From Gracilaria domingensis (lineage: Eukaryota; Rhodophyta; Florideophyceae; Gracilariales; Gracilariaceae): a stretch of 59,657 nucleotides of DNA. The notes beneath the pieces are model-generated. The model ran no database searches. It saw only the letters and a list, made by a program, of their open reading frames with translations, and was not told the origin of the DNA. Position numbers and translations under genes: made by a program. Of this stretch, positions 36,952-59,657 are shown piece by piece. The stretch spans positions 125,819 through 185,475 of the forward strand of contig VCMS01000157.1 in assembly GCA_022539475.1 (NCBI GenBank), in the 5' to 3' direction. The stretch's first letter is position 1. The number at the start of each line of letters is the position of its first letter.

Positions 36952-37040
36952 CAAACGCATCCATCTTCTGCAACAGGTCCCCAATAGCAGAAGCCACTTC
37001 TTCTCTCCACTGCCACAGTTTGTTGTACACGAAATTGGAA
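36915..37040 (-). pseudogene. Fragment of HAD-family gene B
   Basis: About 125 bases match 52062-52185 (minus-strand HAD-B coding sequence covering FVYNKLWQWKEEV and KMDAFFIYPGDKSCEIVD). The left neighbour is HAD-A sense DNA and the right neighbour is ParB-like-gene DNA. The fragment therefore sits between two deletion joints and proves that unit 1 once had the unit 2 gene order. Confidence 0.8.
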
Positions 37041-37979: not shown

Positions 37980-38402
37980 GTTGAACAGCTATTGCAGTGA
38001 AAGTGTATATCAACAATACGTTCGCTCTGGACGATACAAGAACGGATGCGAGCCTTTTAAATGGCGACTTACGCTGGGCACCCCCGCTTTCGGCAGCTCC
38101 TCCCAGCGCACTGCCAGTCTCGTCCGTGTCCTGTCCGTGGCCGCTCGCACACTGATTGTACGCTTTAGAGTCGTGGAGTTCGCGCAATGATGACTCACGC
38201 GAGCAATGGTCGCGCTCTCTAATCATGCTCTTCAAATGCTTTGCATAGTAGTCAAGAGTACACTCATTCACTTCCATGTACAGCCTACTCCCGCAAATAC
38301 ACGTGGACAGCGGCGCCAACGTACCGGCGGCCGGGTGTAGCGAAATCACTGCGCGGCGGCGTGTTTTGGGAGGTCCCGGGAAGGCGCCGAAATGTGGCCA
38401 GA
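37980..38402. promoter_or_regulatory. Promoter region of ParB-like gene, unit 1
   Basis: Matches unit 2 56880-57300. A TTTAAA core (about 38056) sits in a block of about 95 bases, the same block found in inverted orientation upstream of the gene at 58287. Downstream toward the array the sequence reads GTGTAGCGAAATCACTG, the outer end of the inverted-repeat structure that closes at about 39006. Confidence 0.5.
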
Positions 38403-40167: not shown

Positions 40168-40621
40168 TGGTACGTTCTATCGCATTTCAACTGTATCCAA
40201 CGGAGCATTGACTAACTTATGGATACTTTCTGCTTGCGTATACAGGTACACGACCAATTTCATTTCGTCTCTCAAGATCGATCTCTGGCTGTTCGGGATA
40301 GGCGATTCTGGTACTTGGTTGGGACATAGGCTGCTCTCTCGTTTATCCCATCTTGCGGTATGTTTTCTGCATGGGCATTCTTGGTGTCCTTGCTTGTGAG
40401 TTCTCGCTTCGACATTTTTCGCGCTTTACGATGATGGTGGGCTGGTAATCTAACCGATCCCTTTCCTGCTTCTTCTTCCGTTTGCGAGTTACTAGGTCCC
40501 TCGACTTTTCTAGCGCAACGTTTCTGTTTTGCTTTATCAATGGTACGTTCCATCGCATTTCAAATGTATCCAACGGATCATTGACTAACTTATGGATACT
40601 TTCTGCTTGCGTATACAGGTA
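39994..40621. repeat. Direct repeat of about 254 bases, 374 bases apart
   Basis: 39994-40247 and 40368-40621 are nearly identical (both from TGCATGGGCATTCTTGG to GCGTATACAGGT). The block covers the N-terminal segment of the transposase-like ORF on the minus strand (KRCARKVEGPSNSQTEEE). The distal copy keeps an ATG (MERTIDKAKQKR) where the proximal copy has ATA. The intervening 120 bases contain a fragment with KYQNRLSRTARDRS. This looks like a partial tandem duplication that displaced the gene's 5' end. Confidence 0.75.
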
Positions 40622-40664
40622 AATGACTTTTGATGCGAACGTAGCTCACGAGTTGCAGGTGCAG

Positions 40665-40750
40665 GTTCCTCAAGTAGGGAACCATGCATCTGGGCATGGT
40701 TCCCTACATGAGGAACGGAGAGGATGAGGCGCTTCGCGCCTCATCCTCTC
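40665..40750. repeat. Two adjacent hairpins
   Basis: Hairpin 1 (40665-40716) has arms GTTCCTCA(A)GTAGGGAACCATGC and its near-perfect complement with a five-base loop. Hairpin 2 (40718-40750) has perfect 15-base arms GAGAGGATGAGGCGC with a TTC loop. Only one base lies between them. They are not ORF-related. They sit 500 bases inside the right end of unit 1. Confidence 0.85.
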
Positions 40751-41114
40751 GGAGTGCGTATTTGTTCTACCGATACAGCCGATGGTGGACGTGCAGTATG
40801 CGGCATCTGCCGCAGATTGCGCCTACACCCGCTCCATCATGGGGATATGGTACATGTAATATAGCGAAGTAGTGGTTAGCAAAAGCGGTCGATAGAAGAA
40901 TAGATACGAATAAAGCGGTATGATTTCATAATGGGCATCATCTGTACTAGCACTAGTATTCCATGCGTTGCAGGGTATCATTCCGCAGAAGGTATCGTGT
41001 AATGTGCACCTTAATGGAAACTGAACCTAGACTTCGCGAAATACAGTTCAGGTATCCCTCGACTAAAGAACTAGCACGAGTGGAAAACCCACCAGTATTT
41101 ACTGCACAGCGATT

Positions 41115-41246
41115 CTGGACGACCCAAGCAATTATCTGCAAATTTTGAAATAATTGATCTCGATATTTTTTCAAAAAATTTACTGGACGACCCTTGCCAA
41201 TTTCTGGACGACCCTCGCCAAAAACTAGCATCTGCAAGAGACAGAC
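41115..41246. repeat. Subterminal repeats and right terminal repeat of unit 1
   Basis: CTGGACGACCC occurs three times on the plus strand (41115-41125, 41183-41193, 41204-41214), each followed by an AAGC/TTGC/TCGC variant. Short repeated motifs near transposon ends are the usual binding sites of CACTA-type transposases. The element then ends ATCTGCAAGAGACAGAC at 41246, after which Gypsy RT coding sequence resumes. Confidence 0.6.
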
Positions 41247-43050
41247 GCTGCGAAATTCGGAACGAAACGCCGATATACATTACAAAGACCCAGAAAACTG
41301 CGAAGTTCCGTTTGTGTCGTGGGTGTTTCGCTTCTTTCAGCGACTTCACGCGAATTGCGTCAACCGAGAGCTGTCCAGGTCGGATGATATGCCCTAGGTA
41401 TTTGACAGAATCTGTAAAGAACTCGCACTTCTTGAGTTTTAATATGATACCCGCGTCCTTGAGGACTCTCATAACGTCTCGGACGTGTGTCTAGTGGTCA
41501 TCCAGGTTATCAAAGAATACGATAATATCGTCAAGATACACCAAGCAGGTTTTCCACATGAATCAAGCCAAGAGGATATCGATAGCACTCTGAAACGTAG
41601 CTGGTGCGTTGGTTAATCCCAACGGCATTCGTTTAAACCTGTACAAGCCATGGTGACACACAGAAGCCGTTTTGTCTTTATCCTTCTCACGGATCGGAAC
41701 TTGCCAGTATCCCCAATTGGCGTATAAGGCAGTAAATACTGTAGCACTCCTTATTGAGTCAATGTATTCGTCCATTCTGCGTATAGGGTACACGTCTTTG
41801 ACGGTGACCGAATTAAGACTACGGTAGTCGATGCAGAATCGCCATGTACCATCTACTTTCGGAACTAGCACCACTGGTGAGGCCCAGGCAGATTGAGCTG
41901 CCTCAATGACGCCAGCGCGTAACATTTTCTCGACCTGAGATCGTTCTTCTTCCCTTGCTGTGGGACCAGCCTGGTACGGCTGTTGCGAAATGGGGCCAGT
42001 ACCTGGAAGTAGGTCAATACGATGTTCCGTGATTCCAATTGTCCCGAAGGATCCGTCCCACATGGGTGTGAATTCCCTTAGCATTTCTCCTAACTTATCT
42101 CTATGAGATTCAGGTACATGATCAAAATTCAACCGTTCCAGTTCCTTGACAGGGTCTGTGTCTGCTGTCCCTGGTTGTAATGCGTTACCCTCGGTGGGTG
42201 GCAGTGACTCAGTAATTGGGTTCACTGGTTTAATCGATGCGGTAGAAGCGTTCACCGCTGTTCCCTCCTCCTGCTCAGCATCGGTTATACTGAGAACATC
42301 CGCAACAGGTATCTTCGTCGGCACGATGGCAACAGGGTGTTGGAGAGTGGTGCCAAGAATTTGGTTTTTGGCTAACCACTGTTGGGTCGTGCCAAAGTTA
42401 GCGACCAAAACTCTGAATGGTTTGTCAGGCTCCACCGAAATTACACCGTTCGCTAAAGCAAGTTGCTTCTGATCATACAATGGTGGCAACGGTTGTACCA
42501 CGCGTAGACCAGACTGCTTGGTAGTTATGGTGACCCAAACTTGAGATTCCGCAGGGATTGCGAGGGACTTTGCTACACGGAGTTTCGACGATACCGGACT
42601 GACGGTTGGGACTTTCTGTGCAGCAGGGAGCAGAACGCGCTTGCATGTAGCTCTCTTCAGCGGCTTCCTTACAATCAGTATTTCGTGACCATTGTTCATG
42701 GTAACAACTCGAGCTCGAGGGCGAATCGCTTTAACAAAACGATCACAAAAGTCAGAAACGAGTATTACTGGTGCGGCAATGCTTTTGCAAACCTTGAAAT
42801 CCACTTTAACCATACAGGTTCCTAATCGTACCATGAGAGTTATGTTCCCAAGAGTACGCAACGGGTTGTTATTGGCATCCGCGATGTCTAAGCCTGGACC
42901 AAGGCGAATTTCGTCCCGTAACGCGGGTGGTACCAACTCGAGGTGAGTCAGGTTCGGTGCAGCTGCTGTATCCAACACAGACAACTGTCGAACCATGAAC
43001 TGGTTAGACAAGCCAAGATCGGCATAAACTTTGTAGTTTCTCTGGGCCAT
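41247..43050 (-). pseudogene. Pol 5' half: protease and reverse transcriptase
   Basis: The frame opens at the ATG at 43050 (MAQRNYKVYADLGLSN). The protease region has LSVLDTAAAPNLTHLE (DTAA where D-T/S-G-A is usual), with a VLVSDFCDRFVK block near 42730. RT follows: AGVIEAAQSAWASPVVLVPK, CIDYRSLNSVTVKDVYP, FTALYANWGYWQVP, KRMPLGLTNAPATFQ. After a stop near 41563 comes CLVYLDDIIVFF (catalytic D-D), then KKCEFFTDSVKYLGH and LKEAKHP before the boundary at 41246. The first catalytic Asp of RT motif A is Tyr (TALYANWGY). A TAG interrupts near 41490 (DDH*THV). It is therefore enzymatically dead. Confidence 0.85.
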
Positions 43051-45925: not shown

Positions 45926-46583
45926 AGCAACGAGCGGAATAAACCGTCGATAGACGTTGCAAAGCCCTAGAAAGGAGAGTAGCTCAGTCTGAGTTGTAGG
46001 GTGTTTAGCCCCCTTGAGTGACTTCACACGAGCTTCCTCGATCAGCAGCCGTCCGGAGCGGATAACGTGTCCCAGATACTTGACTGAGTCAGTGAAAAAC
46101 TCACATTTCCTCAACTTGAGTGGTATTCCAGCATCACGTGGCGTGGCCATGATCTTCCGAACATGTTCGAGATGGTCATCCAAGTCATTGGAGAAGACTA
46201 TGATATCGTCCAGGTAGACGAGGCAACTTTGCCACTTAAAGCGAGAAAGTAGGATTTCCAGAGCACGCTGATGGTAGCGGGGGTATTAGTCAACCTGAAT
46301 GGCATACGATTGAAGCGGTATAACCCTGAATGACAGGTGAAGGCTGTCTTATCACGGTCTTCTGGACGAACGGGTACTTGCCAGTATCACCAGTTCGCAT
46401 CCAATGTGGAGAACACGGTGGCGTCGCCCACCGAATCGATATACTCATCCATGCGTGGAATAGGGTACACGTCTTTGACGGTGACATCGTTAAGGCGACG
46501 ATAATCTATGCAAAAATGCCAAGACCCATCGGGTTTCGGAGCCAGTACAACTAGAGATGCTCACGGTGACTGAGCGGGCTCAC
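45926..46583 (-). pseudogene. RT fragment of a second Ty3/Gypsy element
   Basis: Minus-strand RT motifs from right to left are EPAQSP (46583), VVLAPKPDGSWHFCIDYRRL, PRMDEYIDSVGDATVF, STLDANW, TCHSGLYRFKRMPFRL, CLVYLDDIIVFSNDLDDH, KKCEFFTDSVKYLGHVI-like, and SFLGLCNVYRRFI. Catalytic Asp residues are present here (LDANW, YLDD) but stops interrupt the frame (after EPAQSP and after DANW). It is related to, but clearly diverged from, the RT at 41247-43050, so it is another element and not a duplicate. Its right edge at 46583 is the insertion point of unit 2. Confidence 0.8.
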
Positions 46584-47050
46584 GTCTGTGTTCTGCAAAG
46601 TGGAATATAGTCTGTTCGCTTTGGAAACAAAGCTAGTTTTGGGGCTATATGGGGCGCGCGAGGGGGTAGCAGAGGCTGGCTCTCAAAAAATTAAGAAATT
46701 TTGGAATATTAAATTCCATTTCGCGCAGTTTAGTTCTTGGGTCCCCTAGTTTTTGTAGAGGTTCTACTTCGCCGCACCACCCCATTCACTCTTTTCCGCG
46801 ACCCTCTCTCAAAACTGCACTCGTGCTAGTTTGCGTTTCCATTTTCTCCCATGTTGCAATGCCAATCGCAACTCATCCCACCTCAATCATCCCATCACTT
46901 CTTCCCAGTCCACACCACCCCCGCTATTTACCCATTTCTCGCCCATCACGCGTTCCCATCCTCTCTCTCCGTCTCCGCAAACGTCATTTTGTAGAAGTCA
47001 GGTGGACAACCCTCCCCCTTCTCGTATACCCGCCTCGACCCAAAACGGAT

Positions 47051-47980
47051 TCAAATCCCTCCCATCCTTCTCTCCTCCTGTCCCCTCAGAATCCCCTTCG
47101 CAGTCCGCGCTACCTCCGCCGCACTCCTAAACCCAGTCACCACCGGAGCTCCCACTCCCTCCCGCGGCACCTCCTCCACCAACTTCTTCATCTCCTTACG
47201 CCTCTTCTTCAGACGGCTCTTCCCATCCCCAACCCCACCACCCTTTGTCTTCGGTGTCACAGGAGACCCCTTCTGCACCGCCACCCTTCCCACATTTCCC
47301 TTCTCCGTCTTTCCCTCCACACCTCCTTTCACCGTCTCCTCTTCCACCAATCTTTGCCTCTTGCACAGCTCTTTCACCTCCTTCTCCAGCACGTCCAACC
47401 TCTCGTTCAGAACCCTATTCTCCTCCCGCAACTCTCCAACCTCCCTTCCCGCACACTCCACTATCCCATACACATGATTTCTCATCTCCACTCCCAATAC
47501 CGACAACGAATTCCGCAGGCTCGAAATCGCCTCAACCGAAACACCACTACCACCCCCACTCAGCACCACACCGCCCATTTCCGTTACAATCTCCACAATT
47601 CCATCGTCCAGTTGCTCCTTCATCACCAACCCCAACATCCCCACCCTCGCCTTCATCTCCCCCACAAACCGCATCTCCCTGTCACCCTCTCCGCCCCCAC
47701 TCTCTATCTGGTCTCCAACCTCTAACTGACTCAGATGCACCGCACCCCTTCTCTCCATTGCGACCCCCTCCACCTCCAATTCTACCTCCTTCTCCACCTC
47801 ATCACCATCCCCTCTCCTCGCCTCACACTTCTTTCCTTCATCAGCCACTTCCTTGTTCTGCGACATGCGACCAGCCGCCGTAATCACGTTCTCTTCCCGC
47901 TTTGGTGACGGCGTCTGCGGTACCTCCTTCCCCTCCAACAGCGCCAACAGCTCCTCATCCTTCACGTATCCGTTCGACAT
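47051..47980 (-). CDS. Coiled-coil protein, unit 2 copy (intact)
   Basis: A 309-residue protein beginning MSNGYVKDEELLALLEGKEV. The open frame extends 32 codons upstream to a GTG but has no ATG there. The N-terminal third is acidic (EVEKEVELEVEG). A Gly-rich turn (LSGGGSGVSVEA) precedes a coiled coil (ELREENRVLNERLDVLEKEVKEL, about residues 175-200), then a basic segment (KSRLKKRRKEMKKL) that could bind nucleic acid or act as a nuclear signal, and a terminal VVTGFRSAAEVARTAKGILR. No family recognised. A coiled coil plus a basic patch fits an oligomeric DNA-binding accessory protein of the element. The strand opposite carries a long Pro/Leu/His-rich shadow frame. Confidence 0.65.
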   Translation of the reverse strand: MSNGYVKDEELLALLEGKEVPQTPSPKREENVITAAGRMSQNKEVADEGKKCEARRGDGDEVEKEVELEVEGVAMERRGAVHLSQLEVGDQIESGGGEGDREMRFVGEMKARVGMLGLVMKEQLDDGIVEIVTEMGGVVLSGGGSGVSVEAISSLRNSLSVLGVEMRNHVYGIVECAGREVGELREENRVLNERLDVLEKEVKELCKRQRLVEEETVKGGVEGKTEKGNVGRVAVQKGSPVTPKTKGGGVGDGKSRLKKRRKEMKKLVEEVPREGVGAPVVTGFRSAAEVARTAKGILRGQEERRMGGI

Positions 47981-48076
47981 CTTCAGAAGAAGAAGTAGTA
48001 GTTGGATCGAAGTTTCCGCTGCGATACAGTGCAATCGAGCTAAACTGTGCTGTCCACCCCCACTGTCCAACCACAC

Positions 48077-48613
48077 GGGCTATATCCAGCACCATGATTG
48101 TCCCTGTTTCCCTCATCCCATTTCCCGCCAAAACATCTACTGTACACCTCCGCACCTTCCACTATTTAAGCGCCATCTCTCTGTCCCCTCTTCACATAGT
48201 CCCCACCCACCTCGCCTCGACCGGCGATATTTTTCTCTTCCACCATAACCCCACTCGATGGTTATAGCAAAACAGGAAGATATCGCCAGTGGAGGCAAGC
48301 TAGGGACTAGTGATTGTACTTAGAGTTGCTCACCCTCTGTCTCGACTGGGGGCATGTTCTTCTTCCGTCACATCCTTTGTGGGTTGTGACAAAAAAAGAA
48401 TATGTCACCACTCGACACCGGATGGGTAACAATGGTAGCACGTAGAGTAGTTCATCCTCCCTCTCAGCGTCCACTGGGGATATATTGATGTTCTCTCACA
48501 TCCTTTCCCGGTTGTGATACAAGAGAAATACATCTCCAATGGACACGGAGAATATAGTCGTGATAACACGTAAAGGTAACAATGTAATAAACAATAAATT
48601 TATGCTACTATCT
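48077..48613. other. Intergenic (unit 2)
   Basis: Near-identical to 33683-34225 of unit 1. No gene seen. Confidence 0.45.
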
Positions 48614-48919
48614 CTAACCAACCTTTCGAAAACCAGCTATGACATGAGCTGGGTTACTCGAGCCAAAGATGGCAGATCCTGCAACTGAAATGTTTGCACC
48701 GGCCTTCACTACTGCTTTCACAGTACTCAGTCCAATACCTCTATCCACCTGTATCCCTATTCTTGGGTACAACTTCCTTGCATGTCGCACCTTATCAAGA
48801 ACACCCTCCATAAACGCCTGTCCTCCAAACCCTGGCTCCACCGTCATCAACAATAAAATGTCTACAACTCCTTCCTTCATAAGTGCTTCTACGACCTTTA
48901 CAGACGTATTCGGGCGCAA
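48614..48919 (-). pseudogene. rpe: Ribulose-phosphate 3-epimerase C-terminal fragment, unit 2 copy
   Basis: Same captured piece as at 34226-34531. VEPGFGGQAF is kept, but QVDGGI of the active site has become QVDRGIGL. That replaces the glycine next to the catalytic Asp and shows that this copy is not under selection for enzyme activity. It lacks the N-terminal half and a start codon in the same way. The two copies differ at several residues (for example ARE versus ARK), so the capture predates the duplication of the units. Confidence 0.85.
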
Positions 48920-49329
48920 TCCAACTCCATCCTTTTAATTATGGCAATCCGAGTGAAGCTATAAACCGTTCACGTCATTTATGAAGCCAAAATGGTTCCT
49001 TTCATTCTGTATTCAAGCTCCCCGTAACTCGTACTTTACAACTACTTTACAACTCAGGTTCGAAATCAGCTTCATTCATTGCACACTTTCTACTCTTCCA
49101 CCTACCTTTCATAAAACATCATCACACTTTGTGGCTTGTCGTCTCATACAAGCCCTATCATTCATTCAGTACAATCACATATCATACATTTCGCTCACTT
49201 TCACAAAGTGAACCATGTTCCCGTTCTGCGCTTCCCAACCGTTTTTACTTAAGTATCACTCTTTACCCCAGCAGTTCTCCGCCCCATCTTCCATTTCTAT
49301 CGTCACACAAAAACATTCGAACACTTGCA

Positions 49330-50232
49330 ATGAACTCCCAGTCCGACATGCCTCCCACTCCGCCTCCGAGTCCCAGATACTCTGACGTCCCTCAGGCCTC
49401 ATCTCCCGCCCGAAGGACTCGAGCCGTTATTGTTGGAAGGGGGCGTTTAGGTACCATGCTGGCGAACGAAGAAGATACGGTCATTTCCGCACACGATTTC
49501 TGCAGCATGGCTGCTACCTCTCATCTTTCTGATGTACCGATACTAGTTTGTGGAAGAACGAACACCCTGGAGACCGTAATTCAGGCTTGCCTTTATTCGC
49601 TCAGAGAGAATCTCGTTTTCTTCCAGAATGGAGACATCATACCATTGGTTTCGAAGCTCGGTGTGGACAAATGTTCAAAAGTTGTCCTATACGTTGGTGT
49701 CCCCTCAAGAAACGCAGCTCCGCAGGATGGTGTCACTCCTCAAAGTCCGGATGGTCTCACTGTCGCAACAGGAAAGTGGGCCTCCAACGTTGCAGACAGG
49801 TTTAGGTCTATGGGTCTCACTTGCGGGGTTGTCGACGAAGACACATTTCTCGTAAGCTATTATGAGAAGCTCGTGTGGCTATCATCGTTCAACATCGTCG
49901 GGGCCCCAAGAGGTTTCATTCCTATGGACGTAGTCGCTACGCAGTGCAGTACGGTTGTGCTCACAATAATGAAAGAGCTGTTGAAGATAGTTTCGCTTAA
50001 GACAGGTACTACTTTCAACCTGGAAGAGACCGTTGGGCAACTTCTTGCATATGGGAAAACTCTCGTTGGCTTCCCTACTTCTTTCTCCGACTTTCAGTTT
50101 AGGAACGCGTACTTCTACGACTTTTCCCGCCAAGAAAGGAACATTGTACGCCGTGACCCCGCTCCTTTTCATACAAACTACGTCAACGTTGTTAAGGAAA
50201 AGTTATCCCCGTCCCCATTCCCCCAGATTTGA
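49330..50232 (+). CDS. Rossmann-fold protein resembling ketopantoate-reductase-type enzymes, unit 2 copy
   Basis: A 300-residue protein that differs from the unit 1 copy by roughly nine residues (for example RLG for RIG, MAA for TAT, VGVPS for VRVPS). The G-x-G-x-x-G is intact (GRGRLGTML), as are the N-L-V-F-F-Q-N and E-K-L-V-W blocks. In family terms it could reduce a 2-keto acid with NAD(P)H, but the Pro-rich N-terminal leader and the unusual C-terminus make the specific substrate unknown. Both copies are open end to end while neighbouring captured fragments are not, so selection is possible. Upstream DNA is CT-rich. Confidence 0.6.
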   Translation: MNSQSDMPPTPPPSPRYSDVPQASSPARRTRAVIVGRGRLGTMLANEEDTVISAHDFCSMAATSHLSDVPILVCGRTNTLETVIQACLYSLRENLVFFQNGDIIPLVSKLGVDKCSKVVLYVGVPSRNAAPQDGVTPQSPDGLTVATGKWASNVADRFRSMGLTCGVVDEDTFLVSYYEKLVWLSSFNIVGAPRGFIPMDVVATQCSTVVLTIMKELLKIVSLKTGTTFNLEETVGQLLAYGKTLVGFPTSFSDFQFRNAYFYDFSRQERNIVRRDPAPFHTNYVNVVKEKLSPSPFPQI

Positions 50233-50859
50233 GGTTAGAACACATGACTTTTCGGTGTTGTAAACCTTTTAGAGATAGTTAAACATAAAAGTTACTTTAT
50301 CGAAATGACCTGTTCCTATTACATTACTTATATTGTTCGTCCTTCTGTGGTTCAAATATGCCCCTTTAAATCCTACATCCGTTATCACTAATACTTCGCT
50401 AAGATTTTGCTAGATAGAAAATGGTCATTCCATATCATTAAAGTGCACGATACTAGTAACGAAACAAGTACAAAAATTGTGATATTTCTGAAGAACTAAG
50501 CGTTTGCATTACTTGAGGCACCCGTATAAAGTAAGGTAAACCTTTTATGGGTTTCAACCCATAATGGAGGTTGTTTTACTGATCTTGATTTCTAAGCTCA
50601 TGTTGAAGATATTCATAGTTTTCTTTACCCACTTGAACCCGTACATATAGTTTATGACTAAATCATCCTTTCTTTACTTCAAATCGATGCAAAAACTTCT
50701 CCTCCTAGTAACGTTTTAAAACAGTACTACAATACCCGTATATGGTCGTTCTTAGACTCTTTTTATACTACGAAACACCTTGTGAACATCAATCACATCC
50801 TTCTCATTCGTATACCCACACCCATTTGCAAAACGAACCCTTTCGAAAGCTTTCAAAAC
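50233..50859. other. AT-rich intergenic region (unit 2)
   Basis: Differs from the unit 1 counterpart by very few bases. No ORF. It contains the 3' end of the reductase-like gene and the promoter of HAD-A. Confidence 0.5.
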
Positions 50860-51732
50860 ATGTATAACTCAGAAGTTAGAGCCCAAGAAGTAACTCCTCA
50901 GCAGCTGGCTAACGAAATATTCGAAAATGGCTACGCCGTGATTAGTGATGTTGACGGTACTCTGAAAAGAGCTGGGGAGAACATTCCTGCCGAAACAGTC
51001 AAATGCATGAAGTACATCAACGCACGCGTTGGTTTCGGAATTGCTACTGGGCGAGATATAGAGGATGCCGAGAGTTTCATGGAGCACCTGGGTGGCTACA
51101 CTTTTGGCATCTCTGGAAACCAAGGCGCACGGGTGAGATTATGCAATGATACCGAAATTGATCAGGACCTTGACAGGGAAGGCTACGAAAGATGTGCAGC
51201 CGAACTTGAGAGACTTGCACTCTCCTTAAATGAATCGCACGGACTTCACGAAGATCGTCAACAAGCAGTGGTGAGCACTAGAAAAGACAGTGGACTCCCT
51301 AACTTCACGTACAATGGACTGTCGAAGTGGAAAACAGAAGTTAACTCCGGTATTTCAAAAGTGTTGACATCCTTTCCGAACCTGGTTGCGTACCCTCAAG
51401 ATGAAAACTGTGACATAGGGGACATTCGTTTCACGAAAAATAGTGGGGCGCTAGCCTTGGTTGAAAACGACCCCCAGTTCGACACACATTTAATCGTTGC
51501 TTTCGGGAATGCTTCCAATGATGGCCCTCTATATGAAATGGCAACCCTGGCAGTTCATGTGAAGGGAGAAGACCATCCAGCAGCGGTAACATATCTTGTT
51601 GATGGGGTGGAGGACGTGCATGAGACCATCAGAAGGGTGGCAGAACTGTACGGGTACAGAAAATGCAAGTGTCAATGGTTTAGAAATGCTCTTGGAATTT
51701 GTTTCAAGTGCTACGATGCCTTTAATACTTAG
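50860..51732 (+). CDS. HAD-family phosphatase-like protein A
   Basis: A 290-residue protein from MYNSEVRAQEV; the upstream open frame starts at GTG. VISDVDGTLKR (residues about 30-40) is HAD motif I with both Asp. GIATGRDIEDAE is motif II. KWKTEV or KNSGALAL may hold the motif III Lys. VAFGNASNDGPLYEMA (near 235) is motif IV, with Gly-Asn in place of the common Gly-Asp and the later Asp kept. The layout resembles Cof-type or sugar-phosphate phosphatases with a C2 cap (about residues 85-190). A phosphatase acting on a small phosphorylated substrate is plausible. It converges on HAD-B 53 bases away. Unit 1 holds a truncated copy. Confidence 0.75.
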   Translation: MYNSEVRAQEVTPQQLANEIFENGYAVISDVDGTLKRAGENIPAETVKCMKYINARVGFGIATGRDIEDAESFMEHLGGYTFGISGNQGARVRLCNDTEIDQDLDREGYERCAAELERLALSLNESHGLHEDRQQAVVSTRKDSGLPNFTYNGLSKWKTEVNSGISKVLTSFPNLVAYPQDENCDIGDIRFTKNSGALALVENDPQFDTHLIVAFGNASNDGPLYEMATLAVHVKGEDHPAAVTYLVDGVEDVHETIRRVAELYGYRKCKCQWFRNALGICFKCYDAFNT

Positions 51733-51784
51733 CTATGATATGAGATCTCAGTAATAAAAGTGTCGTGTATATCTCAATACCCTT

Positions 51785-52645
51785 TTATGAATCATGGTGG
51801 TTTTTATCGTGCTGCTTTTCCTCGTAGCCGTACAACAGAGCCACCAACATAATTGTCGAATGTACATCCTCCACGCTTTCGAACAGGTTGTGTACTCCAC
51901 GCGGGATACAATCTTCTTTGACGTGAACGCCGTACACGCCTATCTCATGCAAAGGCCCGTCGCTCAAAGCACTTCCGAACGTCACGACGTCATCCGTATC
52001 AATAAATCTCGGTTCATTATCCACAAGATTTTCTCCTCCGCTTCCTTTTGTGTATCGCTTGTCCACAATTTCGCAACTTTTATCGCCGGGATAGATAAAA
52101 AACGCATCCATCTTCTGCAACAGGTCCCCAATAGCAGAATCCACTTCTTCTTTCCACTGCCACAGTTTGTTGTACACGAAATTGGGAAGGCCACTATCAC
52201 TTCTGGTCTCCACGAACCCCTTGTCATCATCATTCACAATACCATGCCTCCTATTCAAATCCCTTGCCAGGAACAGTAGTCCGTCAACAGTGTGGTCAAG
52301 GGTGTGATCATTGAATGCACCCTTAATTTCCCTCTCGTCAGAGAAACGCAGGAAAGCTCCATGATTCGCCGAGACACCAAACTTATAGTCTCCGAGTCCT
52401 TCCATTTTCCCCTCTACGTCGCCCAAATCACCCCCTGTGACAAGTCCGAAACCAACACGTTCGTCAATGAACTTCATACACTTCACAACTTCTTCTGGAA
52501 TTGACTCTCCTTCTCTTCTCAACGTTCCATCAACGGAACTTAATATACCGTAAACATTGGCATATATGAACTTAGACAAGGTATTGGGTGAAATTTCCGC
52601 CAAGTCTCTCTGTTCCTCTGCCATTTTTCCTGATACAGTCACCAT
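51785..52645 (-). CDS. HAD-family protein B, nucleophile lost
   Basis: A 286-residue paralogue of HAD-A; I start at the first ATG in frame (52645, MVTVSGKMAEEQ). Alignment by eye gives ILSSVDGTLRR against VISDVDGTLKR, so the nucleophilic first Asp is Ser. LVTGGDLGDVEG replaces ATGRD, and TFGSALSDGPLHEI replaces AFGNASNDGPLYEM. The overall cap region and C-terminal HVKEDCIP...VEDVHSTI still match. The fold should persist but phosphotransfer through an aspartyl intermediate should not. It may bind a phosphorylated ligand or regulate HAD-A. The uninterrupted frame argues against simple decay. A fragment lies in unit 1 at 36915-37040. Confidence 0.75.
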   Translation of the reverse strand: MVTVSGKMAEEQRDLAEISPNTLSKFIYANVYGILSSVDGTLRREGESIPEEVVKCMKFIDERVGFGLVTGGDLGDVEGKMEGLGDYKFGVSANHGAFLRFSDEREIKGAFNDHTLDHTVDGLLFLARDLNRRHGIVNDDDKGFVETRSDSGLPNFVYNKLWQWKEEVDSAIGDLLQKMDAFFIYPGDKSCEIVDKRYTKGSGGENLVDNEPRFIDTDDVVTFGSALSDGPLHEIGVYGVHVKEDCIPRGVHNLFESVEDVHSTIMLVALLYGYEEKQHDKNHHDS

Positions 52646-52960
52646 ACTGCCACAAGTACCGCATAGACAGGAACTGTATAGACTTCTCAGTTTCACACTT
52701 CTCTTAAAAGCAACCTTAAGTGCAGTTTCAGAAATGTTAGGACGCTACATGTTCAATTGCGAATTGACAGGTGCCACCAATGATGTTAACGATACCGAGC
52801 ATTTGGCATGTTGCAATTAGACGCAACTGGACCAAAGACGTTTGACATTTGTTCAATTACCAGCCTGCCGCACCTTTTCTATGTTCATATGTATAGCCTT
52901 GTAATAGTATACTACTCTTAATACTAGCAAGACACACATAATTTACTAATCATCTCATTC
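52646..52960. other. Intergenic between HAD-B and oxygenase-like gene
   Basis: AT-rich, 300 bases, containing the HAD-B 5' leader and the oxygenase-like gene's 3' flank. No ORF of note. Confidence 0.45.
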
Positions 52961-55141
52961 TCATCCACTTCGAGGCGCTCGCAGCCTCATTATTGGCAAA
53001 TCGTCATCACTACTACTCTCGAGCACTTCGGTTCTACCGGCGTCCGCTTCCACACTAATCTCCACGACCACTTGGTCTTCGTCCATGTCAACCGCCCCAC
53101 CCTCCTTATCGGACAACAGTTCATCCTCCGCCTCCTCCTCCTCGTCACCACTGACAAACGTGGGTCGGAAATCCCGCACCCGATGAACAGCGTCAGGTAG
53201 TGCGTAGCCCTCTGGTACCATGTACATGTGGTATCTAACCAGCAAATCCATAGACTCGGGCCTATCCACCTTGTCCTTCCCACTTGCTCCAGCATGTGTC
53301 ACATCACCACGGCCCACGAATACAGAGTACGGTGGGATGATTATCTTCTTCGCTGGATACACCTCTGACATCACTCGCAACTGTTGGTTGTTCATCCCCA
53401 CCAGTTGATGGCTTCCAGCGCTCACCCAGAGAGGAAAGCCCTCTTTCCCAGAGGCCATTACAAAGTATCCGGGGTTGCCAGTATTCATTGTTTCCTTCGT
53501 AACCAGACCACTGAAGTCGGTGTGCAGCGTCTGGCGCTTACACTTTCTCGTCGTCCCCAGAAATCGACCACCAGTTTTCGGAGTGTACATCTTCACAGCT
53601 TCCCTTTCATTGTCCCATAGTCCCAAAGCCGCAGCAAGTGTACCCATTCGAACATCAAGTAAAGCACGCGACCTTACAACCCACCTGAGCTCCTCATTAT
53701 CCTCCGGCTTCTCCACCGTACCCCAACGTGTCGACATCACTCTCCCCTCAAATGGTCCATCGCTACCGTCCTTCCATCCTTCATCATCGTTGATTATTTG
53801 AACAAACGACTTCTGTTCCTCTCCTTTCCGTATATCCGGCATCGCTCCATACTCATTCTCGAAGAAGTCCACCAACTTCCCCGACACATCTCCGAACTCC
53901 CGAACTTCTTCCAACTCCTCCCATTTAGGGACACCATTATCCGTCGCAAAGCCATCAAGCACGCAATATCCATTCTGCCTTAGCTCAGCTTGCATTCGGG
54001 CGAAGAACATTTGCCCAAATTCGTCATGCTCCTTCGCAGCAACCCACAGCACCTCTTCATCATCCATACCTGTCGGTCGAGTACGAGGATACTGCATACC
54101 AAATGTCTCCGCCCGTAGGCGATGTTCAGCCCTTGCAGCGTGCCAAAAGACAAGATGGTGTACATCTCTGAGATTCGAGACACTTAGCAGCTCCGACCTA
54201 TGTCCCTTCGGCAAGTGAATGACTCTGAGCCAGGGGTCCTTGTGCTCAATTACGTTCTTCCCTTGCCATTCCTGCGGTCTCAGCCTGGCATACCCGCACC
54301 ATGATGGGTTCAGTGGGCCATCATATGGGTCACCTCGGACAAGTCCGTTCTCCTCAGATTCCGGAAGAGCTGTAGGTAACTCGTCATCAAATGACCCCCC
54401 ACCTGTCTCTTGCTGATCGTCTGGAGCAGCATCTTTCTCGACGGTGACAACCCGTGGAACTGTCACAGAAAGAAGCTCATCGTCATCCACAAATGCAGAA
54501 CTGCCTGCATTCTCTGCATTCGCTCCCTCTCCCAATGCCACAAACTGAACCTTCATCGACCTTCCTCTCAGCACATGTTCATTTAGTTGAGACATCAGGT
54601 CATCCGGTGTCATGCTGTTCAGAGTAGATCTCATCTGTTGTGTGAAAGTCTTTCTCCGTTTCTTCCTCGGCGGAGCCCGCTGTTCTTCTTCAGAGCTATC
54701 CAGAACTTCTATGGCACCTCGATTTCGGCCGTGCTCAATTTCCCTATAACTCACCTGCGCCCGTTCTCGTGCACTTCTTCGCGGCTCCCCTTCTTCACTG
54801 GCAGATGTTGCAGTAGCAGCAGCGGGAGTCCTCCTCTTCGTCACGGACTGCTTCACTGGTGCGGGGGGCGGAATTACCTTGAGCATCGTCCGCAATCGAT
54901 TCTGAACGGAAGTCGTGGCAGTTCTAATTGAGTTCGTCCTGCTCCGAACACGCGGCAATGTGTTGAAGTTCACAACTTGTCCCAAAAGGAACTGATACAC
55001 AGCTGCGTTGTTGTCTGGGTCCTCAACGTTATCTTCATTCGATGGAGCAGAAAGACTGACTTCGCGTTTCAGGAACACTTCCATGGACTCTTCCTCGTTC
55101 AGTTCATTCCTCACTGCTCTAGCCGCGCGGAACAGAGACAC
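52961..55141 (-). CDS. 2OG/Fe(II)-dependent oxygenase-like protein
   Basis: A 726-codon open frame. It starts at GTG (55141); the first in-frame Met is residue 20 (55084), so the 5' end may lie upstream behind an intron. The N-terminal 250 residues are charged and low-complexity, with a nuclear signal PPRKKRRKTF (near 157). The C-terminal half is the catalytic part: LHTDF (H540, D542) gives the H-x-D; GYFVMASGKEGFPLW and VSAGSHQL are core strands; VFVGRGDVTHAGAS gives distal H616; and LVRYHMYMV gives R636 for 2-oxoglutarate. That H-x-D...H...R order is the double-stranded beta-helix dioxygenase signature. The tail is acidic. A nuclear signal and transposon context suggest a nucleic-acid or protein substrate in chromatin; TET/JBP-type activity is only a hypothesis. 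A decayed paralogue is at 1-528. Confidence 0.7.
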   Translation of the reverse strand: MSLFRAARAVRNELNEEESMEVFLKREVSLSAPSNEDNVEDPDNNAAVYQFLLGQVVNFNTLPRVRSRTNSIRTATTSVQNRLRTMLKVIPPPAPVKQSVTKRRTPAAATATSASEEGEPRRSARERAQVSYREIEHGRNRGAIEVLDSSEEEQRAPPRKKRRKTFTQQMRSTLNSMTPDDLMSQLNEHVLRGRSMKVQFVALGEGANAENAGSSAFVDDDELLSVTVPRVVTVEKDAAPDDQQETGGGSFDDELPTALPESEENGLVRGDPYDGPLNPSWCGYARLRPQEWQGKNVIEHKDPWLRVIHLPKGHRSELLSVSNLRDVHHLVFWHAARAEHRLRAETFGMQYPRTRPTGMDDEEVLWVAAKEHDEFGQMFFARMQAELRQNGYCVLDGFATDNGVPKWEELEEVREFGDVSGKLVDFFENEYGAMPDIRKGEEQKSFVQIINDDEGWKDGSDGPFEGRVMSTRWGTVEKPEDNEELRWVVRSRALLDVRMGTLAAALGLWDNEREAVKMYTPKTGGRFLGTTRKCKRQTLHTDFSGLVTKETMNTGNPGYFVMASGKEGFPLWVSAGSHQLVGMNNQQLRVMSEVYPAKKIIIPPYSVFVGRGDVTHAGASGKDKVDRPESMDLLVRYHMYMVPEGYALPDAVHRVRDFRPTFVSGDEEEEAEDELLSDKEGGAVDMDEDQVVVEISVEADAGRTEVLESSSDDDLPIMRLRAPRSG

Positions 55142-55472
55142 TGCTCTATCATAAAAGAAACCTCGAACTCCTCAAAGCTTTTCCATTGCTTTGTCTTCGT
55201 CGACTTGCCCTTCAATAGAAACATCTGAAGACAATCAAGAATGAACGAAAACTCCTCGGCATCCAAAACATATAGCGGAGTATGGGACAGATGGTGAACC
55301 TATGTCACTCACATCTCACATATATCCTCGAAATGGGCCAGCATTCCCTCACGAGACATGAGTTGCAGGGCGACATTGGCATATCTCAGATACTGACGCT
55401 CTTGCACAGTCCGAATCAGTTGGCTCTCCTTCAACACTTCTGTCACTTCTGCAGGATCCACGTCTGCCGGCG
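55142..55472. other. Intergenic between oxygenase-like and ParB-like genes
   Basis: About 330 bases between two genes on the same (minus) strand; it should contain the promoter or an upstream exon of the oxygenase-like gene. No recognisable TATA element. Confidence 0.4.
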
Positions 55473-56872
55473 TCACCCCCTCAACATCTTCATTAGAATG
55501 GCGACCACACTAACTATAGAGTGTATCTTGTCTGCAAACATCATCCTTCGCATGGTACTCGTCGACTCATTGAGGTACGAAGCAACACATAACAATTCCT
55601 TCATCCCAATGGGCCTCCCATCTCTTCGTATCAGCAGATTGCAACGCCAAAACTTGGCTAATCGCTTCCACTTCGGTGCACCAGTCGCTGCCAAATATTG
55701 TATAGCTTTCAGACGATGCAAACCATCTACAATGAAGCACTTCTTCGTTAGGCGTCCCTTGTCAGTATCCCTCTCTCCCGTAGTAGCATCTTGTAAGGCC
55801 ACCACTGGAGAACCCATCGACTGCAATATCCCCCGCTCCTCCATACTCTTCACAAGGGCTTCAACGTGGCGTTTACTTACTCCACGGAGTAAATTGGGCG
55901 GAGTGTCCACCAGAGTGATGTCAACAGTAACAACAACCATCCGGTACTGATTGAGGTTCACCTTTGGTACCTTCTGACGAATTCGTCTGTACGTCTTGCT
56001 CCGAGTAGGTGTCCCTTGTGTTCCAGACCGCTCGCCAGAAACACTTGAACGTGCCATTCTTGCGGACAGAAGCACAACGTCATCGTCCTGCTGCTCCGCA
56101 GTTTCTGGTGCAGTTTGGGGTACAGATGGACCAGCTCCTTGCGCGGATTGCGCATCCGCGTCTGGAAGGGGACCTTTCATGATCTCATCTTCCTCCTCTT
56201 GCACAGCCGTCCCCTGCTGAACCGTCTGTTTCGACGCAGAAGATCCCCTTGTGTCGACGGTCTGATTCATCGCAGGAGAAGCCCTTTTCGACGCAGTGGG
56301 CTTCGTAGCGGAGGTAGACTTTGTTTGACCTGTCCGCTTCGTAGCTGGGGATGCTCTCGTCTCCATAGACCGCTTCGTAACAGACGACGGACCTGCCCGC
56401 GGAGGTGCTACTGATGCGCTACCTCTCGGTGTTGATGAACTTCGAATTGGCTCCGTGCGGCTTGTCGGCGTCATCACCTCACTCATAGCGCTCACCGTTC
56501 CTCGCTTCGACGCCGGAATGCTGGCTGCCACCGGTTCCATCATTTTCTCATCCCAAGGAGCGGCCGTCCGGAGATCCTGGATATATTGTGGAAGATCCAG
56601 GCCCTCCGCCCGGTAAGGGTAGAACGTCTGACCGCTTCGACTGATGAGAATATTATGAACCACCACAAGACCTGGTCCAATTGCTTCCCGTGCAACTCGC
56701 GGCGTAGAACACTTCCAATTCCATGCAACAACGCTTCCCCGACTATCACCTTTCCTTCATCCTCAATATCCATCTGCAGAGAAACCCGCATTCCACCTTG
56801 CAATAATCGAGTGCTCCGCCGAGTGCGAGGAGTCACGCTTTGCGTACGCTTTCGAACACGAGTTGGCTTCAT
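55473..56872 (-). CDS. ParB/sulfiredoxin-fold protein with Ser/Thr/Lys-rich N-terminus; one frame change
   Basis: The gene starts at 56872 (MKPTRVRKRTQSVTPRTRR) and ends at 55473. The first 45 residues lie in one frame and the rest in another; coding character switches near 56690-56740 (from VIVGEALLHGIG to REAIGPGLVVVHNIL), so there is a frameshift or a small intron. The middle (about residues 100-235) is repetitive and basic (KRTGQTKST, KRASPAMN), then acidic. The C-terminal 160 residues match the ParB/sulfiredoxin fold: VDITLVDTPPNLLRGVS, HVEALVKSMEERGIL, and FIVDGLHRLKAIQYL, the G-x-H-R-x-x-A signature. In ParB relatives this fold binds CTP/ATP or cleaves nucleic acid. It is the only such protein in the window and was deleted from unit 1. 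Confidence 0.7.
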
Positions 56873-56930
56873 GTTGAACAGCTATTGCAGTGAAAGGTGT
56901 ATATCAACAATACGCTCGCTCTGGACGATA

Positions 56931-57024
56931 CAACAACGGAGGCGAGCCTTTAAATGGCGACTTACGCTGGGCACCCCCGCTTTCGGCAGCTCCTCCCAGC
57001 GCACTGCCAGTCTCGTCCGTGTCC
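56931..57024 (-). promoter_or_regulatory. Promoter block of ParB-like gene
   Basis: Contains TTTAAA (56949-56954) about 77 bases from the ATG at 56872. The same block sits upstream of the gene at 58287 and, in unit 1, at about 38030-38125, so it is conserved in three places. Confidence 0.5.
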
Positions 57025-57289
57025 TGTCCGTGGCCGCTCGCACACTGATTGTACGCTTTAGAGTCGTGGAGTTCGCGCAATGATGACTCACGCGAGCAAT
57101 GGTCGCGTTCTCTAATCATGCTCTTCAAATGCTTTGCATAGTAGTCAAGAGTACACTCATTCACTTCCATGTACAGCCTACTCCCGCAATACACGTGGAC
57201 AGCGGCGCCAACGTACCGGCGGCCGGGTGTAGCGAAATCACTGCGCGGCGGCGTGTTTTGGGAGGTCCCGGGAAGGCACCGGAATGTGG

Positions 57290-57480
57290 CCAGAACGTGC
57301 CCGCGGGCGGGGGGGGTCGGTCGTGTTAGGGTAGGTACCCTAACACGACCGGACCCCCCCGCCCGCGGGCATAAAATCGCACATTTTTCAAAAAATCGCC
57401 CAAAACGTGCCCGCGGGCGGGGGGGGGTCGGTCGTGTTAGGTACTACCCTAACACGACCGACCCCCCCCGCCCGCGGGCA
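57290..57480. repeat. Two GC-rich palindromes of the unit 1 array type
   Basis: Same arms (CGGTCGTGTTAGGGTA and complement) with CCCGCGGGC outer arms. The second unit has a slightly shortened centre (GTACTA in place of GTAGCTAC). Confidence 0.8.
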
Positions 57481-57497
57481 CGTTCTGGCCACATTCT

Positions 57498-57745
57498 GGC
57501 ACCCTCCGGAGACCTCCCAAAACACTCCTCCCGGCACTTCCTGTACCCACTGCGTCACCTTAGTGCACCATCCCGTCATCTTCACCCTCCAGACACTCCC
57601 TAATTTCCGGGATGGTGCACTGAGGTGACCATCCCGTCTTCTCCACCCTCCAGACACTCCCTAATTTCCGGGATGGTCACTGAGGTGACGCAGTGGGTAC
57701 AGAAGTGCGGGAGGTGTTTGGGAGGTCTCCGGAGGGTGCAAAAAA
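57498..57745. repeat. Foldback block at the palindrome centre
   Basis: The left arm CCGGAGACCTCCC...GTACCCACTGCGTCACC meets its inverted copy GGTGACGCAGTGGGTAC...GGGAGGTCTCCGG. The interior contains two near-identical direct copies of a 50-base piece (CCATCCCGTCTTC...CTAATTTCCGGGATGG), each with its own short inverted ends. It looks like a nested MITE-type or recombination-derived structure. Confidence 0.75.
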
Positions 57746-57764
57746 TCGTCCAAAACGTGCCCGC

Positions 57765-57945
57765 GGGCGGGGGGGTCGGTCGTGTTAGGGTAGTACCCTA
57801 ACACGACTGGACCCCCCCGCCCGCGGGCACATTTTGGACGATTTTTTGAAAAATGTGCGATTTATGCCCGCGGGCGGGGGGGTCCGGTCGTGTTAGGGTA
57901 CCTACCCTAACACGACCGGACCCCCCCGCCCGCGGGCACGTTCTG
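57765..57945. repeat. Two GC-rich palindromes, opposite orientation
   Basis: Same palindrome type as in unit 1, but the AT spacer now reads CGATTTTTTGAAAAATG, the complement of the left-hand spacer. This is the inverted half of the array. Confidence 0.8.
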
Positions 57946-57959
57946 GTCACATTCCGGCG

Positions 57960-58134
57960 CCTTCCGGAGACCTCCCAAAACACTCCTCCCGGCACTTCCG
58001 GCAGTGATTTCGCTGCACACGCCGTACACATATATCAAACTAGAGAAAACTAGCGCTTCACACCCACTTGATCCGCGACTTTTAGCACAATACGGGACCG
58101 TTGCAATAGCTCCGAATCGCGACGTGGCCGACAC
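57960..58134 (-). pseudogene. C-terminal remnant of the transposase-like ORF
   Basis: Matches the last 50 or so codons of the unit 1 transposase-like ORF (SATSRFGAIA, CEALVFSSLI, GVCSEITA). It breaks off at about 58134, where a 21-base tandem pair (GACACGCGACGCTATCGCTCC) and the promoter copy begin. Confidence 0.7.
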
Positions 58135-58170
58135 GCGACGCTATCGCTCCGACACGCGACGCTATCGCTC
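58129..58170. repeat. 21-base tandem duplication
   Basis: GACACGCGACGCTATCGCTCC occurs twice, back to back, at the seam between the transposase remnant and the promoter copy. It may mark the repair joint. Confidence 0.8.
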
Positions 58171-58180
58171 CGAGCGGACA

Positions 58181-58273
58181 CGGACACGGACGAGACTGGC
58201 AGTGCGCTGGGAGGAGCTGCCGAAAGCGGGGGTGCCCAGCGTAAGTCGCCATTTAAAGGCTCGCCTCCGTTGT
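58181..58273 (+). promoter_or_regulatory. Promoter block of the gene at 58287
   Basis: Inverted copy of 56931-57024. TTTAAA at 58252-58257 is 30 bases from the ATG at 58287. Sharing this block would drive the two divergent genes together. Confidence 0.55.
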
Positions 58274-58286
58274 TTGCGCTGAAGCG

Positions 58287-59537
58287 ATGGATTCCACCGA
58301 TGTTGGAGAGGAGATACATCCTATCGACATGAGTGCTCCGCCTCCGGCGTTCCATGCATATGTCAGACTTTTCTTGGTTCTTCGCGATGCTTTGGCAAAC
58401 AGCGATGGAGGCCCTGATCGGCCACGGGACGTGGGGTTTAGAGGGTTAATAGAGTTCTGCGCCGAGAACTATAAGGATATTCCGGAGGCAAGGAAGATGT
58501 TTGAGGAGGCCACTAACTCCAAGAACCTGCAGAACTTGACACTGCAACAGCTGCGAAAGAGTGTTGTGAATAACAAACCTGTGGAACAGCGATATCTTGT
58601 AACGAAGCTTCTTGACAAGAAGGACGGGGATGAGGACCAGAGACTGCGCGATTTTTTCCTTCTCTCTATGGATATGGGTATATACCTACCGGTGCGATGC
58701 CTGGTTGGTTATTTCATGACCAGGAGAAAGCAGGTTCTGAAGACGACAGTGTTCATCCCACCAACAGCTGTGAACCCATTTGAGGTCGTTATATACTTAT
58801 CATACCTCGGCCACATAATGGGAGAGAACGACAACATCCGAATGATGAAGAAGAAACAACCGAAAAAGAAACGAAAAGTGAACCATGCACCATCTGTGTA
58901 CATACCCACTTTTACGTCGTTCTCCAAAGACAACTGTGATCGACTGGGATTCGCTATCAGTGAGGTCGTATGGGCATGGAGTTGTTTTGCGGCTCATCTT
59001 GGATACACGAACGTTCAGCACATGGTGAAACCATACATTTACATGAATATGCAGACGTTGAAGTATACAGCGCTAGAGACACGGGAGTCTGGTTATGCCC
59101 CGCCGAGCCAGAGTACTCGATTCAACACAAAGGATGTGCCACAGAGCAGTACTAGTGGATCGGTGGAGACCTTGAGTGATGAATGCGATACAAACCTGCG
59201 AATACTGGCTAAGGAGTTTTTGACAGACCTCGAAACCATATGCACCCACGATAGCCTCTATAGCTTACGGGTTGATCAGATGAGGAACTGGATAGAGTTT
59301 TCGGAGATACGGATGGATACCGTATCTAGCTCTGACTCCGGTGAGTTGCCTGCTCGATTTCAGAAGTTTTCGGAGTTGCTATGGAAACCGATACAGGATA
59401 TGCGTCATGCGGCAGGGTTCCATGTCGGCATTCACGCGAAACCTGATATTGAACTGACGAAAACCCCTAAAACTTCCGGTAATGCCGAACCTTCTTCGAC
59501 CAAGTCTGCCCCACCCCACCTCGTCGAGAGTATATGA
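58287..59537 (+). CDS. Unknown nuclear protein with SV40-type NLS
   Basis: A 416-residue protein from MDSTDVGEEIHPIDM. The first 230 residues appear to form a folded domain with alternating helices (FHAYVRLFLVLRDALANS, LIEFCAENYKDIPEARKMF, YLVTKLLDKKDG, RDFFLLSMDMGIYLPV, FEVVIYLSYLGHIMG). The segment MMKKKQPKKKRKVNH contains the classical PKKKRKV nuclear signal near residue 195. Trp/Cys-rich helix VVWAWSCFAAHLGY follows, and the last 130 residues are polar. No family recognised. Its promoter is a copy of that of the ParB-like gene, so it is likely co-expressed. The stop TGA overlaps the ATG of another frame that runs off the window. Confidence 0.6.
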   Translation: MDSTDVGEEIHPIDMSAPPPAFHAYVRLFLVLRDALANSDGGPDRPRDVGFRGLIEFCAENYKDIPEARKMFEEATNSKNLQNLTLQQLRKSVVNNKPVEQRYLVTKLLDKKDGDEDQRLRDFFLLSMDMGIYLPVRCLVGYFMTRRKQVLKTTVFIPPTAVNPFEVVIYLSYLGHIMGENDNIRMMKKKQPKKKRKVNHAPSVYIPTFTSFSKDNCDRLGFAISEVVWAWSCFAAHLGYTNVQHMVKPYIYMNMQTLKYTALETRESGYAPPSQSTRFNTKDVPQSSTSGSVETLSDECDTNLRILAKEFLTDLETICTHDSLYSLRVDQMRNWIEFSEIRMDTVSSSDSGELPARFQKFSELLWKPIQDMRHAAGFHVGIHAKPDIELTKTPKTSGNAEPSSTKSAPPHLVESI

Positions 59538-59657
59538 ACCTCGTGAGCTCCGATAGCGACGAGTTCGAGAAGCCGGTGAATCTTGCGGAGCATGAATCTC
59601 GGGTTGCCGGTTACAACATCCAAAAGACTGGTATTGAGCCGCCCCATGAAGGGATAT
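59534..59657 (+). CDS. Partial ORF overlapping the previous stop by ATGA
   Basis: MNLVSSDSDEFEKPVNLAE begins at 59534 and stays open to the window end (41 codons). It overlaps the TGA of the upstream gene within ATGA. Charged and plausible as coding. It is either the continuation of the upstream gene after a frame change, or a separate frame. Confidence 0.4.
   Translation, partial: MNLVSSDSDEFEKPVNLAEHESRVAGYNIQKTGIEPPHEGI

Follow-up and report, generated by a model that had tools for sequence, protein, structure and literature searches.

A Plavaka-type DNA transposon in the red alga Gracilaria domingensis carries a likely nucleic-acid modification gene set with a ParB-oxygenase fusion and a head-to-head DNA methyltransferase

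The DNA considered here, hereafter the window, is a stretch of 59,657 nt from the red alga Gracilaria domingensis (C157:125819-185475, in an assembly of 77.9 Mb and 680 contigs). The region at 46582..59657 forms the cargo-bearing half of a large DNA transposon of Plavaka type, in which two divergent genes stand head to head. The gene on the minus strand (52961..56872) encodes a protein with a ParB/sulfiredoxin-fold domain and a 2-oxoglutarate (2OG)/Fe(II) oxygenase-like domain, and is referred to as the ParB-2OG gene. The gene on the plus strand, which runs past the window end, encodes a DNA methyltransferase that is fused to a SET domain in its relatives, and this partner was overlooked in the first-pass annotation of the DNA. 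The open reading frames (ORFs) named in that annotation are present in the ORF list of the window where it had placed them. Its central proposal, a eukaryotic transposon with a probable nucleic-acid modification set, is strengthened by the head-to-head methyltransferase and by the recurrence of both genes, alongside a Plavaka transposase, in an element lineage that has diverged.

The ParB-like and oxygenase-like ORFs had been described initially as separate genes. Both contents are real, but the two ORFs are halves of one gene, since tblastn aligns them, from end to end, to one protein of 1,305 aa encoded by an intact copy (C81, L037). The N-terminal part, with the ParB/sulfiredoxin-fold domain, corresponds to 55473..56872 (-) and the C-terminal part, with the oxygenase-like domain, to 52961..55141 (-). 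As the ORFs are split in the window and form a single frame elsewhere, the window copy is a broken one, interrupted between the halves. Scoring of 62 copies among 837 candidates gives a lower bound on the number of ParB-2OG genes in the genome; the oxygenase half is free of stops in 36 of these 62, and four retain an open frame of 1,294-1,308 aa. The protein matches of the oxygenase ORF number three, all from G. domingensis and 87-93% identical, and when the oxygenase half of the 1,305-aa protein served as query, nine relatives were recovered along with two Gracilaria proteins. Both domains are retained in the aligned relatives wherever the ends are present, at an overall identity of 19-38%. 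Two of the pieces carry misleading public names, 'mediator of RNA polymerase II transcription subunit 15-like' and 'SasA (LPXTG motif)' (P0002 and P0003). A tree of the oxygenase part had none of its eight branches starred, and hence no relationship is drawn from it. Scans for two short peptide patterns, which reach only relatives retaining those peptides, found no ParB-2OG relative in viral contigs (32 stretches with the patterns) or in genome contigs (68 stretches matched).

The ParB/sulfiredoxin fold of the N-terminal domain is well supported. The domain carries a D-G-x-H-R motif, of which D-G-x-x-R is present in all nine aligned ParB-2OG proteins, and it matches a ParB-like PHROG at 0.0026; one of ten proteins also matches the DGQHR family TIGR03187 at 0.057. 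The C-terminal domain is probably a 2OG/Fe(II) oxygenase, an assignment that draws on weak fold evidence and on the HxD...H...R set, which is invariant. The window copy reads QTLHTDF ... GSH ... GRGDVTHAG ... RYHMY, and across the family HxD is found in 10/10 proteins and the distal histidine and the arginine each in 9/9; the distal histidine and the arginine are separated by 16-20 residues in eight of nine proteins and by 40 in P0012. These residues would bind iron and 2OG. No 2OG family is among the Pfam matches of the ten aligned proteins, and a PDB profile search with the family alignment returned two chance-level matches. A structure model of the oxygenase is of low confidence and was used solely for fold comparison with VIA-align, in which the listed neighbours include no TET, JBP or AlkB chain. 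The profile searches and structure prediction, which had been proposed for 55473-56872 and 52961-55141, bore out the ParB fold. For the putative oxygenase, with its expected double-stranded beta-helix, fold support is weak, and the fold neighbours (discussed below) lean against a nucleic-acid substrate.

The link to TET/JBP dioxygenases drawn in the first-pass annotation found no support. A genome search with the TET/JBP profile PF12851 gave nothing at E up to 10, and the profile matched none of the ten aligned proteins, so that a TET/JBP identity of the oxygenase is rejected at the profile level. For AlkB (PF13532) there are four genome matches, none at a listed ParB-2OG element copy.

The window holds the N-terminal part of the methyltransferase gene (58287..59537, +), seen as tblastn segments at 58257-59513 (96%) and 59510-59656 (88%). 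It includes the basic stretch PKKKRKV, which we take to be a classical nuclear signal; basic, nuclear-signal-like stretches are present in both the ParB-2OG and the methyltransferase proteins. The catalytic part, read in other copies, matches PF01555 at 1.9e-13, over the cut-off. Its closest solved relatives are the DNA methyltransferases DpnA and CcrM, and its PHROG matches are named DNA methyltransferase or methyltransferase. Motif IV, TDPP[FY]N, is present in all seven aligned rows, two of which are Gracilaria copies, and a F-x-GTFST motif follows later. The position of motif IV ahead of motif I within the PF01555 match confirms the order of the beta class. In bacterial enzymes DPPY is the signature of N6-adenine methylation and SPPY that of N4-cytosine methylation, according to the available part of PMC8885841. 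The Gracilaria protein is thus a bacterial-type beta-class enzyme, and because of its DPPF/Y motif its target is probably N6-adenine.

PF01555 and a C-terminal SET domain are both over the cut-off in five of five relatives of the methyltransferase. In a Gracilaria copy (C203) the start of the SET domain alone is matched, at 0.19 and below the cut-off, and the alignment of one relative (P0015, residues 13-1010) extends through the SET region of L037. A methyltransferase frame of 1,055 aa without a stop is found in 8 of 150 matches. The phage search gave no relatives of the methyltransferase. In viral contigs there are at least 49 loci that are 21-49% identical, mostly over short segments, and these are read as putative ordinary methyltransferases.

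The intergenic region between the divergent genes (56873..58286) is rich in C-rich inverted repeats (families D1, D2, D10 and D12; inverted I1 and I4). It also contains a 93-nt inverted repeat (pair I3) whose arms are 100% complementary, one at 56932..57024, 59 nt ahead of the ParB-2OG start, and the other at 58182..58274, 12 nt ahead of the start of the methyltransferase ORF. The placement of this perfect repeat near both gene starts looks like that of a shared promoter, to which a control function may be ascribed. Repeat units about 110 nt long, C-rich and bearing the motif CTACCCTAACACG, occur at 38300-38980 and 57224-57999, inverted around the intergenic region, and include the telomere-like CCCTAA.

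The element to which these genes belong ('unit 2', a member of lineage 1) is present in many copies that are about 98% identical. Its in-window part is 46582..59657 and it extends about 9.7 kb past the window. Searching with a 13.7-kb query taken from the window placed the left end at query position 582-584 in three of the four places scored (among 1899 candidates). The right end lies beyond the window: of 18 other contigs listed, 16 have matches ending at L045 9804-9813, and the match stops earlier in C591 and runs on in C643. The common left start and common right end together give an element length of about 22.8 kb. The termini are short, imperfect terminal inverted repeats (CGTCTGTGTTCTGCA / CGTCTGTCTCTTGCA). 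A target site duplication of 2-3 bp fits in one copy (TT in C187) and in none of unit 1, unit 2, C91 or C238.

Toward the right end lies a transposase gene whose product matches the Plavaka family (PF18759) at 1.8e-19, with 70.6 bits against a cut-off of 26.3. A Plavaka frame of 1,100 aa without a stop is found in 21 of the 123 matches scored genome-wide among 672 candidates. The transposase ORF matches Plavaka alone in Pfam at E up to 1, and a KDZ transposase is rejected. The suggested association with KDZ-type transposons thus fell away, as Plavaka is set apart from KDZ in the available sections of Kojima 2025 (PMC12730594). The fungal Plavaka groups described there have the termini TGT..ACA or CATCA..TGATG, neither of which was found at the ends of the Gracilaria element. 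Both ends begin CGTCTGT..., which makes the element a relative of Plavaka by its transposase and not a member of those two fungal groups by its ends.

The order of the methyltransferase, ParB-2OG and transposase genes is fixed across copies. Geometry was counted for 62 ParB-2OG, 150 methyltransferase, 150 epimerase (of at least 151) and 123 Plavaka matches, and the counts are minimum values since contig ends and the listing of matches depress them. A methyltransferase gene lies within 15 kb upstream and on the opposite strand of the ParB-2OG gene in 17/62 copies; the three alternative arrangements account for 0, 1 and 1. Of the 150 methyltransferase matches, 32 have Plavaka on the opposite strand no more than 12 kb downstream (versus 3, 3 and 1), at a distance of 5.3-5.9 kb in 27 of those 32 cases. 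The trio also recurs in a strongly diverged second element lineage within this genome. In copy C277 of lineage 2, ParB-2OG segments that are 27-50% identical to those of lineage 1 stand head to head with a methyltransferase part that is 27% identical, and a Plavaka match follows 5.5 kb beyond the methyltransferase. The DNA of this copy has no blastn match to the lineage-1 element, and its central stretch is seemingly deleted. A further methyltransferase, in C247, is 37% identical to that of lineage 1. The window itself begins with the tail of a lineage-2 element, the 3' part of a diverged second ParB-2OG gene (43..453, +) that is 43.6% identical, has one stop and retains the HxD, distal histidine and arginine residues; methyltransferase and Plavaka matches lie to its left on C157.

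Lineage 1 carries additional genes between its left end and the ParB-2OG gene. HAD1 (50782..51732, +) encodes a Cof-type HAD hydrolase (PF08282, 5.5e-13) in which the nucleophile motif DVDGT is kept. Its paralogue HAD2 (51785..52696, -; PF08282, 7.4e-05) reads SVDGT, with the nucleophile aspartate replaced by serine, as is also the case in the C203 copy; lineage-1 matches extend into HAD2 in 29 of 29 copies retrieved. A Rossmann-like ORF with the motif GRGRLG (49129..50232, +) has no family match, and its PDB matches are at E 0.41 and worse. A 3' fragment of a ribulose-phosphate 3-epimerase gene (48617..48928, -; PF00834, 1.1e-22) is 93% identical to the full-length copy in C203, which encodes 255 aa (PF00834, 1.3e-65). 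The epimerase is found 2.7-4.8 kb downstream of the ParB-2OG gene on the same strand in 15/62 copies, versus 1, 0 and 0. The C203 protein is 42% identical to another epimerase gene of the genome that has an N-terminal extension (L046). A coiled-coil-like ORF near the left end (47051..48076, -) has no family match over the cut-off. Queries with HAD1, the Rossmann-like ORF and the epimerase found no match in L108, which covers 9.9 kb of the C277 copy, or in window 1-32000; their absence from lineage 2 is likely, though unproven, as it is judged from those 9.9 kb and the left part of the window. The HADs, the Rossmann-like ORF and the epimerase look like passengers of lineage 1 that stand outside the modification chemistry. 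The HAD phosphatases, previously counted among the members of the set, probably do not belong to it, given that HAD2 lacks the nucleophile and HAD1 is unmatched in the lineage-2 DNA searched. Genome-wide there are at least 151 matches to ribulose-phosphate 3-epimerase (444 candidates), and in 41 of the 150 listed the match covers profile positions 2 to at least 196. This transposon-driven spread of a housekeeping enzyme is unusual.

Fungi and oomycetes are known to have transposons that bear one epigenetic enzyme, and the sections of Kojima 2025 (PMC12730594) that were available describe TET+ DNA transposons of fungi among KDZ, EnSpm, Plavaka and others. Like these, the Gracilaria element is a DNA transposon with a probable 2OG-type oxygenase as cargo, and Plavaka is among the carriers. 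Unlike those described there, it is red algal and about 22.8 kb long, its oxygenase lies outside the TET/JBP profiles and is fused to ParB, and it has a head-to-head DNA methyltransferase(-SET) gene. The HarbingerS and MuDR SET transposons of Phytophthora (same source) similarly carry a histone-methyltransferase-type domain, whereas the Gracilaria element has a Plavaka transposase, and in relatives of its bacterial-type DNA methyltransferase SET occurs as a fusion to that enzyme. The N4CMT protein of bdelloid rotifers is likewise a eukaryotic fusion of a chromatin domain with a bacterial beta-class aminomethyl DNA methyltransferase, but its motif is SPPY, its chromatin domain is a chromodomain and it is encoded by a rotifer gene, while the Gracilaria enzyme has DPPF/Y, has SET in its relatives and is transposon-borne (PMC8885841, available part). 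From what was seen of these two papers, the combination of methyltransferase and ParB-2OG is absent from the fungal TET+ transposons, the SET-bearing transposons and N4CMT. The ParB-2OG protein shares its fold and D-G-x-H-R motif with the ParB/Noc/sulfiredoxin/DGQHR superfamily, and differs in that the domain is fused to an oxygenase-like domain and resides in a eukaryotic transposon. No report of a ParB-oxygenase or methyltransferase-SET fusion was found among the papers that the literature searches listed, where most subscription journals fell outside reach. The high-copy element described here pairs a methyltransferase, SET-fused in relatives, with a ParB-oxygenase, a combination that survives in a strongly diverged lineage.

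It is likely that the element bears a nucleic-acid modification system, the chemistry of which is deduced from sequence. More specifically, it may encode a mobile, self-directed modification set in which the methyltransferase and ParB-2OG proteins act on DNA marks and the HADs and other cargo are passengers, a reading to which a probability of roughly 0.55 is assigned. The methyltransferase would write a DNA mark, most likely N6-methyladenine (6mA), and the SET part may add a histone mark. The ParB-like domain would bind DNA or nucleotide and carry the oxygenase to the element or to marked DNA, where the oxygenase could oxidize the methyl group or base so that the mark is removed or further modified. 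Together the two proteins would set the chromatin state of the element itself, with the most likely benefit being escape from silencing or control of the timing of transposition. A bolder and more tentative version is that a eukaryotic transposon superfamily carries a complete epigenetic toggle, in which an adenine methyltransferase-SET protein writes and a ParB-loaded oxygenase erases or hypermodifies, both under one divergent promoter region. Such a toggle would allow a mark based on 6mA to spread in red algae without dependence on the host methylation machinery. If the chemistry holds, the element would give a eukaryote a mobile system that both writes and erases, the disputed 6mA of eukaryotes would become testable in a seaweed, and a ParB domain would have been reused to aim an oxygenase.

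Several observations weigh against such a set. The sole fold neighbours of the low-confidence oxygenase model are natural-product oxygenases and not nucleic-acid enzymes, 26 of the 62 ParB-2OG copies have stops in the oxygenase half, and the copies within the genome form a recent burst that is decaying almost neutrally. Among 30 copies, the oxygenase half has 100/100/117 variable sites at codon positions 1/2/3, the ParB part 50/55/65 and HAD2 50/39/53; part of this variation may be assembly error, because transversions occur about as often as transitions and frame breaks of a single base are frequent. It could be that the genes were captured and are functionless for the element, retained merely by lying between its ends, as the broken copies, the near-neutral variation and the likeness of the epimerase to captured housekeeping metabolism would lead one to expect. 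This is very unlikely, however, since motifs and head-to-head order are kept in a second lineage whose matched segments are only 27-50% identical, and relatives retain the ParB-2OG architecture. Alternatively, the oxygenase and methyltransferase could target proteins or RNA, such as chromatin or translation factors, in place of DNA. The fold neighbours and the SET fusion of the methyltransferase in relatives would suit such targets, but the closest solved relatives of the methyltransferase are DNA methyltransferases, the PHROG names agree, and the ParB fold shares a protein with the oxygenase, which makes this quite improbable.

An anti-silencing device resembling the fungal TET+ transposons, in which the oxygenase strips host-placed 5-methylcytosine (5mC) and the methyltransferase serves some other purpose, is unlikely as well. 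Fungal transposons, Plavaka among them, do carry TET/JBP genes (PMC12730594, available sections), and the HxD...H...R set of the ParB-2OG family fits an oxygenase of that kind. Against this stand the lack of any Tet_JBP match in the genome and the pairing with an aminomethyl-type DNA methyltransferase, which points to a different mark. In addition, C-to-T changes in element copies are not raised at CpG (7.17 per 1000, compared with 7.03 at CHG and 6.66 at CHH), leaving no sign of methyl-CpG deamination, and these flat rates disfavour a simple account based on 5mC and TET, though the copies are young and, with transversions about as frequent, some of the differences may stem from assembly errors. 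The first-pass annotation had pointed to base-modification loci of phages. In a hypermodification pathway of that kind the oxygenase and ParB-like domain would attach a moiety to DNA, and the HAD phosphatase, Rossmann protein and epimerase would supply or trim it. Iyer and co-workers are said to have worked both on KDZ and on phage base modification. The presence of these genes within the lineage-1 repeat, with HAD2 reached in every copy retrieved and the epimerase in a preferred position, accords with that proposal. It is nevertheless highly improbable, as HAD2 is without its nucleophile, HAD1, the Rossmann-like ORF and the epimerase are unmatched in the lineage-2 DNA searched, and the epimerase is by sequence an ordinary ribulose-phosphate epimerase, closest in the PDB to ordinary ribulose-5-phosphate epimerases.

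Elsewhere in the window lies an internally deleted copy of the lineage-1 element that retains both ends ('unit 1', 32208..41247). Retrotransposon pieces, read as Ty3-type, lie at 31724-32179, 41071-43050, 43291-45381 and 45743-46183 (all -), and unit 1 appears to be inserted within one of them. Two hydrophobic, membrane-protein-like ORFs at 18139-19336 (-) may be lineage-2 cargo; related DNA and an ORF are found in the lineage-2 copy L108 (4855-5445, +). A large tnp2-type transposase ORF at 4282-7548 (-; PF02992, 6.9e-14) marks an EnSpm-like element, which may interrupt the lineage-2 element.

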